NCBI RefSeq assembly: GCF_000754095.2
Contig: NZ_JQSG02000003.1
Span: 237,397 to 301,396, forward strand
From: Acidihalobacter prosperus
Lineage (GTDB): Bacteria > Pseudomonadota > Gammaproteobacteria > DSM-5130 > Acidihalobacteraceae
DNA length: 64,000 nucleotides
Direction: 5' to 3'
The notes under the pieces were generated by a model. It was given only the letters and a program-made list of their open reading frames with translations, was not told the origin of the DNA and did not search any database. The position numbers and the translations under genes were made by a program. Shown piece by piece: positions 1-7,451 of this stretch; the stretch's first letter is position 1, and every line of letters starts with the position of its first letter.

Positions 1-516
1 CCAGACGATATTCTGGGGTGTCGTCCGCTTCAGAAACCCGGTGTATATGATGGCGTAGCCGATCATCGCAGACAGCGTCAGCACGGCCGTCTCGACATTC
101 ACCCACTCGACCAGCACGATCATCGACAATACCGCGAGCAGCGCGGCGAAACCCAGCCCCTGGAAGGTACCCAGCCCGCCGGTCGCGATCGGACGCCAGG
201 CCGTACGCGACATTTTCGCGTCCATATGCTGGTCGATCACGTGATTGACGGCCGCCGCGGAGGCCGCACCCAGACCGATTCCGATCGTGCCGAGAAGCAG
301 AGTACCGATTGCGATGATGCCCGGCGTCGCCAACAGCATGCCCACGATGGCGGTAAACAGGATCAGCGCCACCACGCGCGGCTTCGTCAATGCGTAATAG
401 GCCTGAATCTGGCGCCAGATGCTCGCCCAACGCCACTCCGCGACACCGGGCGCGCCGACGTCGGCAATGGGCAGATCGGCTTCGCCGGCCAGACTGCGCT
501 CCTCATCTTGACGCAT
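1..516 (-). CDS. ctaB: Protoheme IX farnesyltransferase (heme O synthase), 3' part outside window
   Basis: Integral membrane UbiA-family prenyltransferase that adds a farnesyl group to heme b to make heme O, the precursor of heme A for the aa3 oxidase encoded just upstream. The visible 172 codons hold the N-terminal half: a soluble leader, then hydrophobic helices from about residue 45. The prenyl-diphosphate/Mg site is visible as N-H-V-I-D-Q-H-M-D at residues 91-99 (NxxxDxxxD). The start ATG at 516 follows a GAGGAGAG ribosome site. It lies 47 bp after ctaA in the same direction, so the two are probably cotranscribed. The C-terminus runs off the left window edge. Confidence 0.93.
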   Translation of the reverse strand, partial: MRQDEERSLAGEADLPIADVGAPGVAEWRWASIWRQIQAYYALTKPRVVALILFTAIVGMLLATPGIIAIGTLLLGTIGIGLGAASAAAVNHVIDQHMDAKMSRTAWRPIATGGLGTFQGLGFAALLAVLSMIVLVEWVNVETAVLTLSAMIGYAIIYTGFLKRTTPQNIVW

Positions 517-1750: not shown

Positions 1751-1969
1751 TTAACTCAGCACATCCTCGATATTGCGGATGCGCGCCTCTTCTTCCTTAC
1801 GGGCATTTCTGTAGAACCACATCAGAAAGACGACGAAACAAGTCCAAGGCACCAGAATGAACGTACCGGTCCACCACCAGGCGGGCAGATCGACCGTGTG
1901 CGGCACAATAAAGTGCAGCGCAGGGATATGTACGTGAGGCAATGCATGCGAATGCGCTGGAATATCCAT
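1751..1969 (-). CDS. Small single-helix membrane protein, coxD position
   Basis: A 72-residue protein at the place where coxD (oxidase subunit IV) lies in the A. ferrooxidans rus operon. It has a His-rich start (six His in the first 20 residues), one hydrophobic helix at about residues 31-50 (WWWTGTFILVPWTCFVVFLMW) and a charged C-terminal tail. It follows coxC by 18 bp on the same strand, which supports cotranscription. I infer a small accessory subunit of the oxidase from position; the sequence alone is too short to assign a family. Confidence 0.75.
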   Translation of the reverse strand: MDIPAHSHALPHVHIPALHFIVPHTVDLPAWWWTGTFILVPWTCFVVFLMWFYRNARKEEEARIRNIEDVLS

Positions 1970-1987: not shown

Positions 1988-2557
1988 TCAGATAATGAAA
2001 TAAATCACGTAGAACAGAACCCACATGACAACGAGCAGACGCCAGAAATCGACGGCGTTGTGCACCTTCCAGGCCTGTTCCGCCCGGATCTTGCCCTTCG
2101 AGCTCGCCGACACGTACGCCATGAAGGCGAAGTGCGCAAGACTCATCATCAGCAGGAATGCAACCGTGTCGGTGTACAGATTTTCACCGTATCGGCTACC
2201 CACGGGGATCGGGCTGCTGAACCAGTCGTAGATCACGCCAATGGCCACCAACGTGATCATCGCCAGCGCAATCGAAAGATTGCGCGCGATTGCACCGTTT
2301 TCCCCCTGATAGGCGGCTTTGACCGCCGACGAGGTCGGAAACAGGCTGGCGATCATGATCAGTGTCAGCACGGTCCACAGGACATAATTGATTCCGGCGG
2401 GCTTGTCGGCATATGCCCACAGGAAACGGGCCGCAAACAGCGGAATGAAAAATATTGTCGATGACAGCAGGATCAATCCGAATGCGCCGCGTTTTGCCCG
2501 CATCGGCGCGGGATCGAGGATGCCGTTGACATAGGCTTTCGATTCGTCGAGTTCCAT
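1988..2557 (-). CDS. coxC: Cytochrome c oxidase subunit III
   Basis: Heme-copper oxidase subunit III, 189 residues, with five hydrophobic segments, typical of the short five-helix bacterial form. It stabilises the catalytic core and proton uptake and carries no metal centre. It follows coxA by about 50 bp on the minus strand and precedes the small coxD-like gene. The assignment rests on length, helix count, the region around WKVHNAVDFWRLLVVMW near the C-terminus, and operon position. Confidence 0.9.
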   Translation of the reverse strand: MELDESKAYVNGILDPAPMRAKRGAFGLILLSSTIFFIPLFAARFLWAYADKPAGINYVLWTVLTLIMIASLFPTSSAVKAAYQGENGAIARNLSIALAMITLVAIGVIYDWFSSPIPVGSRYGENLYTDTVAFLLMMSLAHFAFMAYVSASSKGKIRAEQAWKVHNAVDFWRLLVVMWVLFYVIYFII

Positions 2558-2607: not shown

Positions 2608-4503
2608 CTAGGTGCTCTGCTTGGACTCCACCCAGATCACCGGATCGGGCGCGTTCTCTTCGTAGTTGTAGAAATCCGCAACCACGACGGGGTCCTTGCC
2701 GAACGGGAAATTCTCGTACGGCGGCGGCGACGGCATCTGCCACTCCAGAGTCTTGCCACCCCACGGGTTGGTGCTCGCGATCGGGCCACGGTAGTAGCTG
2801 TACACCAGATTGACCAACGGAATCAGGAAGCCGGCGCCCAGCAGGAACGCGTTGATCGAGATCCACTCGTTCATCGGCTGCAGGTACGGCAGGTAGGTCG
2901 CGATACGGCGGTTCATGCCGTCGATGCCCACGATATACATGCCGAAGAAAGTGAAGTTGAAGAAAATGAAGAACCACCAGGCGTGAAACTTCGCCCAGAA
3001 CTCATTCACCATCCGCCCCGTGACCTTGGGGAAGTAGTAGTAAAGCGCGGCAATCCAGGTGAACAGCATGCCGCCGAGAATGGTGTAGTGGAAATGCCCG
3101 ATGACGAAGAACGTATTGTGGATCTGCAGGTTGGCAGGCACGTCGGAATTGAACACGCCGGTCAGACCGCCGATCAGGAAGTTCACCATCGACATCAGCA
3201 CGAGCAGCATCGGTGAGGTCAAACGGATGCGGCCACCCCAGAGTGTGCCGATCGCGGCCAGATAGAAGAAGCCTGTCGGCACCGACACCATTTCGGTCAA
3301 ACCCATGATGATCGGCAGACGGACGTCACCCACCTGAGTGAAGAAGTGATGCACGCCGACGGCGCCGGAAATGGCCACGATGCCTACGAAACCGGCAGCG
3401 GCCCAGCCACGACCAAAAAGACTGCGGCGCGAGAACACCACGATGATCTCCAGCCACAACGCCCAGGCCGGCAGCACGAACACATACACCTCGGGATGGA
3501 ACAACCACCAGAACATATCCTGGTAGGCCAGCGTCAAACCACCCTTGAGGGCATAGAACTGCGTGCCGACCACCATGTCGAACAGATTGAACAGGAAGGC
3601 ACTCGCCGTATAGGGCACGAAGATGATCAGCAGCACCGAAGCCGAGGCAATGCCATAGACGAACATCGGCACGCGTGACAGCGTCATGCCCTTGGCGCGC
3701 ATGAACACCATCGTGGCGACGAAATTGATCGCGCCTGCCCACGACGACAGCAGCAGCGTGGCGCCACCCATGAAGTAGAAAATAATACCGGTGCCACCCA
3801 GAGTGGAGAGAGGCGGGAAACCCATCCAGCCAGACTCATAACCACCCACCATCGGACTCATCGCCACGGCGATCACCGCAGGCGGCACGAACCAGGAGCT
3901 GATACCCATCAACTTCGGATACACCACCTGACGCGCACCGATCATCGGCGGCAGCATGAAATTACCGATACCACCGAGAATTGCCAGCGCAGCCACCGCC
4001 AGCAGCATCAACGTGCCATGAATGCTGAAGGCCTCGTTGTACTGTTCCTTATTGGCGAAAAACATGCCATGCGGCGACAGCAGGTCGATGCGGATCGCCA
4101 TTGCCAGCATGCCGGCGATAAAAAAAGTGGCGATCGCGAAGATCGTGTAGCGGGTTGCAGTGGCCTTAGCTTCGGTACCGAAGCGGAAGTAACGCCCCAC
4201 TCCTTTATTGATCCAGGTTTCCTCACCACCGAAGGATGGTTTGACCCAACCTTCCCAGACGCCGATACCCATGAACCAACCGATCAGACCAAAAATATAG
4301 CCTACGGTCAGTTCTCTCGGTGATGCCAGCGAGCCATGCCCGCGCCCATTGAGGGAAAATTCGATAAATGCAACGAGCAGTGTACCGATCAGATATCCGA
4401 TTCCGGCCCACAGCACGCCTCTTGCGAGCGGCCACCAGTCCGCGAAGGTAATCCCCCGCGGGCTCTCGGCCCTATCCTGATTTGTTGAAATAACCGATGA
4501 CAT
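2608..4503 (-). CDS. coxA: Cytochrome c oxidase subunit I (aa3-type)
   Basis: Catalytic subunit that reduces O2 to water; in iron oxidisers the electrons come from Fe(II) through periplasmic carriers. The metal ligands are present: heme a His162 (SIHGTLM) with His472, CuB ligands in HPEVY (336-340, with Glu338 and Tyr340) and HH385-386, and heme a3 His470 (GHFHYT). It is 631 residues, longer than usual, with two additional N-terminal hydrophobic segments before residue 90. The usual D-channel aspartate region reads MIGARQVVYPK and the segment that normally carries the K-channel lysine reads RRSLFGRGW, so the canonical proton-channel residues look replaced. It sits 46 bp after coxB. Confidence 0.97.
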   Translation of the reverse strand: MSSVISTNQDRAESPRGITFADWWPLARGVLWAGIGYLIGTLLVAFIEFSLNGRGHGSLASPRELTVGYIFGLIGWFMGIGVWEGWVKPSFGGEETWINKGVGRYFRFGTEAKATATRYTIFAIATFFIAGMLAMAIRIDLLSPHGMFFANKEQYNEAFSIHGTLMLLAVAALAILGGIGNFMLPPMIGARQVVYPKLMGISSWFVPPAVIAVAMSPMVGGYESGWMGFPPLSTLGGTGIIFYFMGGATLLLSSWAGAINFVATMVFMRAKGMTLSRVPMFVYGIASASVLLIIFVPYTASAFLFNLFDMVVGTQFYALKGGLTLAYQDMFWWLFHPEVYVFVLPAWALWLEIIVVFSRRSLFGRGWAAAGFVGIVAISGAVGVHHFFTQVGDVRLPIIMGLTEMVSVPTGFFYLAAIGTLWGGRIRLTSPMLLVLMSMVNFLIGGLTGVFNSDVPANLQIHNTFFVIGHFHYTILGGMLFTWIAALYYYFPKVTGRMVNEFWAKFHAWWFFIFFNFTFFGMYIVGIDGMNRRIATYLPYLQPMNEWISINAFLLGAGFLIPLVNLVYSYYRGPIASTNPWGGKTLEWQMPSPPPYENFPFGKDPVVVADFYNYEENAPDPVIWVESKQST

Positions 4504-4549: not shown

Positions 4550-5305
4550 CTAGAAACTCTGGCTGGCAACCCAGGCCTTGAATTCCTTGTCTGAAACCAC
4601 CTTCACCACGGCCCGCATCTGCGCATGACCGAGACCGCAATCCCAGCTGCACTGCACGCGTGCGAGCGGATTCTGGTCAGTGGTCACCTCCTCGGTGGGT
4701 GTGATGACGATCGAACGGGTCATGCCTGGCACCAGGGCTTGTTTAATGCCCCAGATCGGCACCCAGAAGGAATGCATGACGTCATCGGATTTGACGATGA
4801 ATTTGATCGGCTGATCGACCGGCACTTCCAAAACAGGCGAATTCATAATGCCTTGCTTGGGGTAGCTGAACGACCACTGCCACTGTTGCCCAGTCACATC
4901 CACCACCAGCGGATCCTTGGCGTCGGCAGATATATTCCAGAGCTGCTCGAGGCCAACCATGCCCGGATACACGAAAACAACCGTGTTGATCATGATCGAC
5001 ACGCCAAGCCACACGAACGTGAAGGGGCTGAATGCGTGGGTATGGATCTGCGCGCTTTGCTTATCGTCCAAGGGCACCCGATGAACGATGGCCGCATACA
5101 CGAACGGCACGGTGACCAGAATGAACACCATCACCGTCACGTGGTAAATGAAGGTAAGAGCATCCTTAGTGATCTCGCCCTGCAGGCTGCCCACGGCAGG
5201 CCACAGATGGTCGATCGACCAGAAGACGAACGTCTGCGCGATCGGGATCAAGATCGCCCAGATGATCACCACATTGATGAAGTCTCTCCAAAGATTTCTT
5301 TTCAT
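4550..5305 (-). CDS. coxB: Cytochrome c oxidase subunit II with CuA site
   Basis: Electron-entry subunit of the oxidase, 251 residues: three hydrophobic segments (about 10-30, 50-72 and 95-115), then a periplasmic cupredoxin domain. CuA ligands are visible as His178 (DVMHSFWVP) and Cys219, Cys223, His227 and Met230 in CSWDCGLGHAQM. The residue between the cysteines that is normally Glu (CSExCG) is Trp here. Only its backbone binds copper, so CuA can still form, but the Glu side chain that bridges to the Mg site is lost. The aromatic stretch GQQWQWSF is the expected electron-transfer patch. It lies between acoP and coxA on the minus strand. Confidence 0.96.
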   Translation of the reverse strand: MKRNLWRDFINVVIIWAILIPIAQTFVFWSIDHLWPAVGSLQGEITKDALTFIYHVTVMVFILVTVPFVYAAIVHRVPLDDKQSAQIHTHAFSPFTFVWLGVSIMINTVVFVYPGMVGLEQLWNISADAKDPLVVDVTGQQWQWSFSYPKQGIMNSPVLEVPVDQPIKFIVKSDDVMHSFWVPIWGIKQALVPGMTRSIVITPTEEVTTDQNPLARVQCSWDCGLGHAQMRAVVKVVSDKEFKAWVASQSF

Positions 5306-5372: not shown

Positions 5373-5945
5373 TCAACCTGCGGTGGCGGCAACGACGTCG
5401 ACTGTTCCTTGCATGCCGTCGAGGAAATGCTGCCCGTTCTGCAGGAAGCAACCGTAAGTCCACTTGCCCGGCTTGTCCGGGACGGTAAACCGGAAAGTGA
5501 AATGCTGGCCAGGCGTAAGGCTCACGGAAAAATCCTTCTGGATTTTTTCATCACCTGATTTTGTATGAATCGTGACACCCGCGAAAAAGCCTGTCTTCCA
5601 GCCATCGGGTTCGCGATGCTGCTTGAAGCCCGTCGCACTAGTACGGAGGTCACGCCCCATATTCCACTGATGGTTCTGACCGGGCTGCCCGTGATTGACG
5701 TTCATCAGCGTCAGCTCGACCTTTTCGCCCACATGCCAGGTCAAATGCCCAGGCTCGTAATAGAAATTGTGTTCGTCGATGATGTAGTGGTGATATCCGT
5801 CGGCCAGAACCTTGCCTTGGGACGTCGGCTGCGTCGTACGGGTCCAATACCATCCTGCGACGAACAAAATGGCGAAGATGATCAGCGCGATGAGCACATG
5901 ACCACCACCCTTCGGTGCAACCCCGGGTGTGCTTGACTGAGCCAT
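5373..5945 (-). CDS. acoP: AcoP-like membrane-anchored cupredoxin
   Basis: 190-residue cupredoxin anchored by one N-terminal helix (about residues 16-32), with the copper domain in the periplasm. Putative type-1 copper ligands are His92, Cys166, His173 and Met178, giving C-X6-H-X4-M. Rusticyanin has C-X4-H-X4-M; the wider loop is the hallmark of AcoP, the cytochrome-oxidase-associated cupredoxin of A. ferrooxidans, encoded just before coxB. Ligand spacing agrees with what I recall for that protein. The start at 5945 is chosen because GGAGAG lies 7 bases upstream; an earlier in-frame ATG at 5960 overlaps that ribosome site. It probably passes electrons between cytochromes and the oxidase or stabilises the complex. 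Confidence 0.88.
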   Translation of the reverse strand: MAQSSTPGVAPKGGGHVLIALIIFAILFVAGWYWTRTTQPTSQGKVLADGYHHYIIDEHNFYYEPGHLTWHVGEKVELTLMNVNHGQPGQNHQWNMGRDLRTSATGFKQHREPDGWKTGFFAGVTIHTKSGDEKIQKDFSVSLTPGQHFTFRFTVPDKPGKWTYGCFLQNGQHFLDGMQGTVDVVAATAG

Positions 5946-6020
5946 TATCGATCTCTCCAAGATTAAACACGGGTTTTAGAAAAACGGCTTTCTCGGGCCG
6001 GAATTAATCATTTTCAAAGC

Positions 6021-6056
6021 CCTTCTGCCGCAGACAGGACCGCCCGCGGCAGAAGG
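6021..6056. terminator. Hairpin between cyc2 and acoP
   Basis: An 11-bp inverted repeat (6021-6031 and 6046-6056, 14-base loop) lies directly after the cyc2 stop. In the minus direction only a short CTTTG follows, while on the plus strand five T follow, so it is not a clean terminator for cyc2. A partial terminator or mRNA 3' stabiliser would make cyc2 more abundant than the downstream cox genes, as is known in A. ferrooxidans. Confidence 0.5.
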
Positions 6057-6065
6057 TTTTTCACA

Positions 6066-7451
6066 TCACATCATGATCCAGGTGAAGAACGACAAGGTGT
6101 TGTTGTCGGAGGCATTGCGGCCCAGACCATCGTAGTTCGATGACGCGCCATCGAACTTGGTGTAGGCAACGTACTGCACACCGAACTTGGTGTTGATCCA
6201 CGGCACATAGTTGAACTGCAGGACATAGCCGTTGGTGTTCGGCTTGCCGTTGGCGGACACGCCGTCGGACTGCGCAACGCCGTACTGGTCACCGCCACCC
6301 CAAACAGCGGCGTTCTTCTTGCCGGTATGGGTGAAGTACTGAGCCAGCACGCCGTATTTTCGGTGCCAGTAGTATTCGCCATTGACCTGGAAGTCGTTGA
6401 CGTCAGCCTTGGTGTTCGGCGCACCCGGGATGGTCATGTTTTCGTGGATATAGGACGCGTGGAACGTATAGCTGTAATTCGTAGCCACGTGCTCGTACTG
6501 ACCGTCGAGCGCCGTATCCACGTAGTGGTTCTCAGGCCCGGTATTGCCGTTCTGGTACATCTTGGCATCGATACCAAAGGTGCCGATTTCCCAGGAATTG
6601 ACGCCACCCTCGTGGGAGTAAGCCAGTCGCCAATATGGTGCGACACCCGCCAGACCACCGGAGTTGGTCTGATCGCCCGGGATCATAGCCCGATAGGCCA
6701 TAACCTGCGCGTACCAGGTATTGTTGTACCAGACATACGCACCGGCACCGGCGGAAGTCTGCTGCAACACCACCTGACCCAGCAGCGTACCGTCATTCGG
6801 GCCGCCCTGACCGGCGTTCGGACCGGTGAAGGGATAACCCCAGATCGGGGTGCTCTGCCAGAGATCACCCACACCCGGCGCATTGTTCACGTCGAGACCC
6901 CAGACCAGGTTACCGCCACCCACCTGCGACTCCTTCGCATAACGCACGTCGGTGTTGTCGATAGTGATGTGATCGGCGGTCGGATCGTAGGTCAACTGCG
7001 AGAAAACACCGAGGTCCGTACCCGCGCGGCCCGCATAGAACAGGCTGTACTGCACGGGAAATTCGGTTGCGGGATTGGAGACTGCCGCACCCGTAGTATA
7101 GGCCGTCGCAGTACTGTTGTATCCCGCAGGCGCCTGCTTGCTCTCCTGCACCTGGTCGGCCACGAGCATCAGTGCAATCGGCGGAATTTTGTCGATCGCA
7201 AGACGCTTCTGATTGTCCTGCTCATACCCGATGGTGTTGTTGCTACCGGAATTGAAGGTATAGGCCAGCGATTTGAACTGTCGGCCAAACGAGGTCAGCT
7301 GCGGCTCAACGGTGTGGCACGCCGCACAAGACACGCCGAGCTGCCGAGCAAATGCGGGCACGGCATGCGCTTCCTGCGCGCCGACCATCGCAGCGCCACC
7401 GACCACGAGGGCCGTGACCAGCTTGCCAGCTGAAAATTGCTTTCGATTCAT
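6066..7451 (-). CDS. cyc2: Cyc2-like cytochrome-porin fusion, outer-membrane Fe(II) oxidase
   Basis: 461-residue precursor. The signal peptide ends near AQEAHA (residue 30). A single c-type heme motif CAACH follows at residues 42-46 in the family context VPAFARQLGVSCAACHT. The rest is rich in alternating aromatic and polar stretches ending in FFTWIMM, typical of an outer-membrane beta-barrel. This is the Cyc2 architecture: a monoheme cytochrome inside a porin that accepts electrons from extracellular Fe(II). A strong GGGAGGAGAG ribosome site precedes the ATG at 7451. It is the first gene of the cyc2-acoP-coxBAC cluster; neither a cyc1 nor a rusticyanin gene lies between it and acoP. Confidence 0.93.
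   Translation of the reverse strand: MNRKQFSAGKLVTALVVGGAAMVGAQEAHAVPAFARQLGVSCAACHTVEPQLTSFGRQFKSLAYTFNSGSNNTIGYEQDNQKRLAIDKIPPIALMLVADQVQESKQAPAGYNSTATAYTTGAAVSNPATEFPVQYSLFYAGRAGTDLGVFSQLTYDPTADHITIDNTDVRYAKESQVGGGNLVWGLDVNNAPGVGDLWQSTPIWGYPFTGPNAGQGGPNDGTLLGQVVLQQTSAGAGAYVWYNNTWYAQVMAYRAMIPGDQTNSGGLAGVAPYWRLAYSHEGGVNSWEIGTFGIDAKMYQNGNTGPENHYVDTALDGQYEHVATNYSYTFHASYIHENMTIPGAPNTKADVNDFQVNGEYYWHRKYGVLAQYFTHTGKKNAAVWGGGDQYGVAQSDGVSANGKPNTNGYVLQFNYVPWINTKFGVQYVAYTKFDGASSNYDGLGRNASDNNTLSFFTWIMM

Follow-up and report, generated by a model that had tools for sequence, protein, structure and literature searches.

Cyc1 is the accepted link between rusticyanin and the terminal oxidase in acidophilic iron oxidation, and in Acidithiobacillus ferrooxidans the transfer from rusticyanin to the CuA center is performed by this cytochrome. 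The corresponding operon of Acidihalobacter was reportedly first described by Nicolle et al. in 2009, in strain V6. In PMC10654088, the rus operon of Acidithiobacillus is printed as cyc2-cyc1-cup-coxBACD-rus-ctaT-ctaB-ctaA, and that of Acidihalobacter as cyc2-cyc1-cup-coxBACD-ctaA-ctaB-rus. Cyc1 was also named in PMC5216662 as the predicted partner of A. prosperus rusticyanin Form I, on the basis of sequence and gene neighborhood. For the genome of strain DSM 5130, both pet and rus operon genes have been reported (PMC4208320); therefore, the rus operon as such is already known. Our literature search found no statement that cyc1 is absent from this operon; such a statement may already stand in the 2009 description.

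The window analyzed here is a stretch of 64,000 nucleotides from the A. prosperus genome (G000:C3:237397-301396). It was compared with the congeners G001 and G002, all three being Acidihalobacter genomes (GTDB genus g1) that carry Cyc2, and with two genomes of a sister genus (G003 and G004), in which no Cyc2 match was obtained at E ≤ 0.001. The genes of the cluster lie on one strand with mostly short gaps, forming a predicted operon. Positions 5373-7451 comprise two minus-strand genes, cyc2 and acoP, which are followed by coxB, coxA, coxC, coxD, and ctaA. Positions below are those of the window unless a contig is given.

6066..7451, minus strand: cyc2, an ORF for a predicted outer-membrane monoheme cytochrome-porin of 461 amino acids with a single CxxCH motif (CAACH)
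5946..6065, minus strand: cyc2-acoP gap of 120 bases, the site of cyc1 in relatives, with a predicted RNA hairpin of 16 pairs
5373..5945, minus strand: acoP, cupredoxin; the ATG at 5945 was taken as the start, and the best PDB match is AcoP 7z3b (E = 8e-45)
4550..5305, minus strand: coxB, oxidase subunit II; PF00116 above its cut-off and TIGR02866 below; CuA motif CSWDCGLGHAQM
2608..4503, minus strand: coxA, aa3-type oxidase subunit I (PF00115, E = 8e-109)
1988..2557, minus strand: coxC, oxidase subunit III, assigned from its place and from identity to the CoxC place elsewhere
1751..1969, minus strand: coxD, an ORF for a small oxidase subunit of 72 amino acids
564..1673, minus strand: ctaA, heme A synthase (PF02628, E = 3e-68)
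1..516, minus strand: ctaB, heme O synthase, 5' part only; the gene extends 465 bases to the left of the window
C3:236055-236687, minus strand: rus, an ORF whose probable start codon is the ATG at 236621 (gene C3:236055-236621); the rusticyanin model matched C3:236058-236486

A sequence-only reading of this DNA had placed cyc2 directly before acoP and coxBAC, and this arrangement was confirmed, as all of these genes are on the minus strand and no gene lies between cyc2 and acoP. The full order, cyc2-acoP-coxBACD-ctaA-ctaB-rus, was the same in G001 and G002. The cyc2 product was 73% and 76% identical to those of the two congeners, and its assignment is based on the single CAACH motif together with 30-33% identity, over nearly the full length, to Cyc2 of seven rus-type loci. 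No Pfam or NCBIfam model matched Cyc2, AcoP, or CoxC at E ≤ 0.001. The coxC product was 28-34% identical, along almost its whole length, to the proteins encoded in the CoxC position in other rus-type loci (41% in one locus, where the match was partial), and the coxD product shared 74% and 85% identity with the proteins at the same place in the congeners and was matched in 6 of the 12 loci of relatives described below. Both congeners contained ctaA, for which no match was found at E ≤ 1e-4 among these 12 loci. G002 also harbored two extra acoP-coxBAC copies (L040 and L041), one of them with coxD; in the L041 copy, acoP is cut at its start, the coxA match is in two pieces, and the upstream ORFs appear transposase-like by eye. 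A second Cyc2 homologue, 40-43% identical, was present in all three g1 genomes, and in G000, where its surroundings were viewed, it stands alone (C3:429173; L026:9123-10433).

The same reading had held that the cluster lacks rusticyanin, which was not borne out. The rus gene ends the operon approximately 0.78 kb to the left of window base 1, with ctaB straddling the window edge between ctaA and rus; the supposed lack was an artifact of where the window was cut. The best PDB match of the rus product was rusticyanin 1rcy (E = 9e-38), and the type 1 copper ligand motif (H and C-x4-H-x4-M) was present. Its TIGR03095 score of 137.2 bits was just below the cut-off of 146.7, which none of the five genomes of the family passed. 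A rusticyanin-model search of G000, which had been proposed as a check, returned five places, including the rus gene of the operon itself; a second rusticyanin gene at C1:738631 scored 113.4 bits and carried the full ligand motif, and two further weak matches were located on C1. The remaining place, G000:C3:742814-743137 (L005), held a broken rusticyanin-like sequence interrupted by four in-frame stops.

Consequently, the rus half of the contrast that had been drawn with A. ferrooxidans falls because rus closes the operon, whereas the cyc1 half stands. The gene cyc1 is missing from the Acidihalobacter operon, being absent from its place between cyc2 and acoP in all three genomes with Cyc2. The cyc2-acoP gaps measured 120, 125, and 107 bases in G000, G001, and G002, and 120 bases could not accommodate a gene for a diheme cytochrome. 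When the genome_contigs collection was scanned with a pattern derived from an AcoP alignment, 12 loci in relatives were obtained. Seven of these held Cyc2 and represented six genomes, since two came from one strain; four others had no Cyc2 match, and one was uninformative because its contig starts at acoP. A diheme c4 cytochrome was located between cyc2 and acoP in every one of the seven other loci with Cyc2 (six genomes).

We consider it probable (roughly 60%) that this is an iron-oxidation operon of Cyc2, AcoP, oxidase, and Rus without cyc1, in which electrons would pass from Fe(II) to Cyc2, Rus, AcoP, and the aa3 oxidase in turn. By analogy with the A. ferrooxidans model, Fe(II) would be oxidized by Cyc2 at the outer membrane, after which rusticyanin would ferry the electrons across the periplasm and the aa3 oxidase would hand them to oxygen. 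A carrier other than Cyc1 probably feeds the oxidase in Acidihalobacter; the sequence-only reading had offered a carrier gene at another site or a greater part for AcoP, and either may apply. The Rus-to-CuA step, which is less sure than the others, may be performed by AcoP; the anatomy of the operon makes AcoP the favored donor to the oxidase because it is the only carrier encoded there besides Cyc2, Rus, and the oxidase. AcoP contains one hydrophobic segment near the N-terminus (residues 17-35) and looks membrane-anchored, and CoxB retains its CuA motif. The columns H, C, H, and M, which presumably hold the copper-binding residues (H, C, H, and with them M) and whose positions were read off the alignment, were kept in all five Acidihalobacter copies of AcoP and in 16 of the 19 rows overall.

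The three exceptional rows were G003, G004, and L076 (judged by length, L076 is the G004 contig again), in which E, S, and Q replace H, C, and H, such that three of the four ligands are gone. In the operons of G003 and G004, the rusticyanin-like protein also lacked the C-H-M copper motif, as judged by a motif search and by eye on unaligned sequences, and a ligand-bearing rusticyanin-like protein was encoded elsewhere in each genome. The genes whose products have lost ligands are as follows.

L042:9797-10465 and L042:15317-16087 (G003): AcoP-like gene and rusticyanin-like gene
L043:5430-6098 and L043:11016-11798 (G004): AcoP-like gene and rusticyanin-like gene

The CuA motif of CoxB was intact beside these ligand-poor AcoP-like proteins, which indicates that this kind of oxidase can work without a copper-bearing AcoP. 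AcoP is therefore not the redox carrier in every such cluster, and the notion that it always serves as such was rejected as a general rule. As judged from these sequences, the place of AcoP beside the oxidase can outlast its copper, which calls for caution in assuming a carrier role. Following the rusticyanin-like gene, both genomes of the sister genus encoded a protein of ~455-471 amino acids with one CxxCH (L042:16353-17720 and L043:12122-13537), for which Pfam returned only Sel1 repeats in G003.

Other candidates for the donor to the oxidase are the c4 cytochromes. The genome search for diheme cytochromes that the sequence-only reading had recommended was successful in that four diheme c4s were detected in G000, but none of these fell inside the Cyc1 clade. 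In a c4 tree of 29 rows, 11 of them from Acidihalobacter, the eight Cyc1-type rows (six from between cyc2 and acoP, and two from beside cyc2 without acoP) formed one clade with a support of 100/100, and none of the 11 Acidihalobacter rows was inside it. A Cyc1 profile (alignment A2), run on G000 without a known Cyc1 as positive control, gave the four diheme c4s scores of 136.1, 134.9, 134.2, and 120.3 bits, with one further match scoring 57.4 bits; no c4 stood out. The idea that cyc1 had simply moved elsewhere was largely set aside, as the profile retrieved only general c4s and none of these was in the Cyc1 clade, but AU tests rejected joint clades for just two of three c4 groups, and weakly, and did not reject one for the c4 linked to a pet operon near rus.

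This pet-linked c4 lies beyond rus, where a thioredoxin-like gene on the opposite strand and two SCO1-type genes are followed, 3.3 kb from rus, by a bc-type operon. The operon encodes, in order, a Rieske protein, the N-terminal half of cytochrome b, a fusion protein of 659 residues, cytochrome c1, a protein of 116 residues that no Pfam model matched, and the diheme c4 (C3:227466-228227). It is possible, though we lean against it, that this c4 fills the role of Cyc1, perhaps as a diverged or displaced Cyc1. The three Acidihalobacter genomes all carry the gene in this position, its product belongs to the c4 family by PDB matches that include cytochrome c-552 1h1o, and it may be a sister of Cyc1, since forcing the two into one clade cost only 2 log-likelihood units and was not rejected (p-AU 0.365). 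On the other hand, it is the last gene of an operon of the petA-petB-c1 type, and its product is 39-47% identical to Acidithiobacillus c4s encoded beside petA, compared with 30-37% to Cyc1; this better match and this place suggest that the protein is the entry to the bc complex. In the free tree it belonged to neither the Cyc1 nor the CycA clade, and a clade with the ten CycA-type rows was likewise not rejected (p-AU 0.269).

It is unlikely that the oxidase is instead fed by a c4 unlinked to the rus operon, such as the pair at C3:210967-212234 or the c4 of a second pet operon on C1, or by some other c-type cytochrome. Cytochromes of the c4 family donate to oxidases in other bacteria, and G000 contained intact diheme c4 genes and 16 Cytochrom_C stretches. 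However, the unlinked c4s show no linkage to the rus operon, and joint clades with Cyc1 were weakly rejected both for the C1 c4 group (p-AU 0.037) and for the group of the C3:210967-212234 pair (p-AU 0.028), although a rejected Cyc1 ancestry does not decide function. An assembly error as the cause of the missing cyc1 is hardly credible, because the same cyc2-acoP junction occurs in three genomes of three species, which refutes it unless the error is common to all three.

The hairpin between cyc2 and acoP comprised 16, 13, and 16 pairs close to acoP in G000, G001, and G002, with folding-energy z-scores of -2.9 in G000 and of -3.1 and -4.8 in the congeners; the cyc1-acoP gap of four relatives gave z-scores of -1.5, -3.0, -4.0, and -2.0. 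The helix length was equalled by 6, 21, and 10 of 100 simple shuffles in the Acidihalobacter genomes, and the corresponding figure for the seven loci with cyc1 was 7 to 42 of 100. Among the 14 rows in total, one extra G002 copy, L074, G003, and G004 had no such hairpin or a helix of another shape. A terminator was rejected, as the hairpin was absent from a consensus terminator scan and its length was unexceptional, although its energy was below that of the shuffles. The predicted folds are suggestive of a meaningful element before acoP, which, if real, would divide the transcript between cyc2 (plus cyc1 where relatives have it) and the genes for the oxidase.

The 659-residue fusion of the bc-type operon is the part of this system that is likeliest to be new. 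It was located 6 kb to the left of the window and at the following places.

L025:3474-5453 (G000:C3:229374-231353): fusion gene, 659 amino acids
L119:5469-7448: fusion gene, 659 amino acids
L120:6038-8017: fusion gene, 659 amino acids

The length of 659 residues and the gene order were the same in all three Acidihalobacter genomes, with 90% identity between G000 and G001. Residues 8-477 correspond to the first 476 of the 794 positions in the NirB model, the siroheme half of NirB being absent, and the C-terminal half of cytochrome b is matched by residues 529-634. Motifs that we take to be those for FAD, NAD(P)H, and a BFD [2Fe-2S] cluster were recognised in the sequence, and the petAB-type operon therefore contains a predicted NAD(P) oxidoreductase module. 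The cytochrome c1 of the operon has one CxxCH, and no multiheme c subunit is encoded. Among the matches listed for 369 sampled genomes of the class, none extended beyond residue 496 except those of G000 and G001, and of 398 genomes sampled from the phylum G000 alone matched at E ≤ 1e-165; uniqueness of the fusion is not shown by these samples because both are partial, they overlap, and at most three candidates were scored per genome. A literature search for a fusion of NirB and cytochrome b returned only one unrelated paper.

The usual Qo-site motif of cytochrome b is PEWY. Both cytochrome b proteins of G000 (L025:3474-5453 and L028:9953-11398) carried PLFF or PLWF in its place, and the Qo-site glutamate is therefore missing from both. 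Given the usual topology of Rieske/cytochrome b complexes, the fused domain would lie on the cytoplasmic side, with access to NAD(P)+. A tentative and rather doubtful proposal is that Fe(II) oxidation without Cyc1 would divide into a downhill branch, in which AcoP would connect Rus with the aa3 oxidase, and an uphill branch through the fusion complex, in which the proton gradient would drive NAD(P)+ reduction, bypassing quinol and NDH-1. If active, the fusion would shorten the most demanding task in this mode of growth, that of lifting Fe(II) electrons to NAD(P)+.

The closest printed precedent found for the fusion operon was the Rieske/cytochrome b complexes of the anammox bacterium Kuenenia (PMC12954380). 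These share with Acidihalobacter a split b6-like cytochrome b, a subunit IV-like part, and an NAD(P) oxidoreductase module. The Acidihalobacter module, however, is the N-terminal half of NirB with a BFD [2Fe-2S] site, forms one chain with the C-terminal half of cytochrome b, and is accompanied by a c1 with one heme motif. In contrast, the published model of the Kuenenia subunit contains several [4/3Fe-4S] clusters together with multiheme cytochromes.

If cyc1 is absent, the Cyc1 path fails for these salt-tolerant biomining bacteria, and Acidihalobacter becomes a natural test of the role of AcoP. Relative to the Acidithiobacillus operon in PMC10654088, the window operon has in common Cyc2, AcoP (cup), CoxBACD, CtaA, CtaB, and Rus, as well as the acoP-coxBACD order; it differs in lacking cyc1 and in having ctaA-ctaB before rus rather than after it. 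The Acidihalobacter order printed there matches the genomes except for cyc1, which was absent in all three genomes with Cyc2, and Cyc1 was apparently misreported for the Acidihalobacter operon. As for PMC5216662, the two rusticyanins that it describes for A. prosperus, Forms I and II, compare with two full-motif genes in G000 (C3:236055 and C1:738631), whereas the Cyc1 named as partner of Form I has no counterpart in the operon of G000. The operon itself is published, and the missing cyc1 is its one true difference from what has been described.
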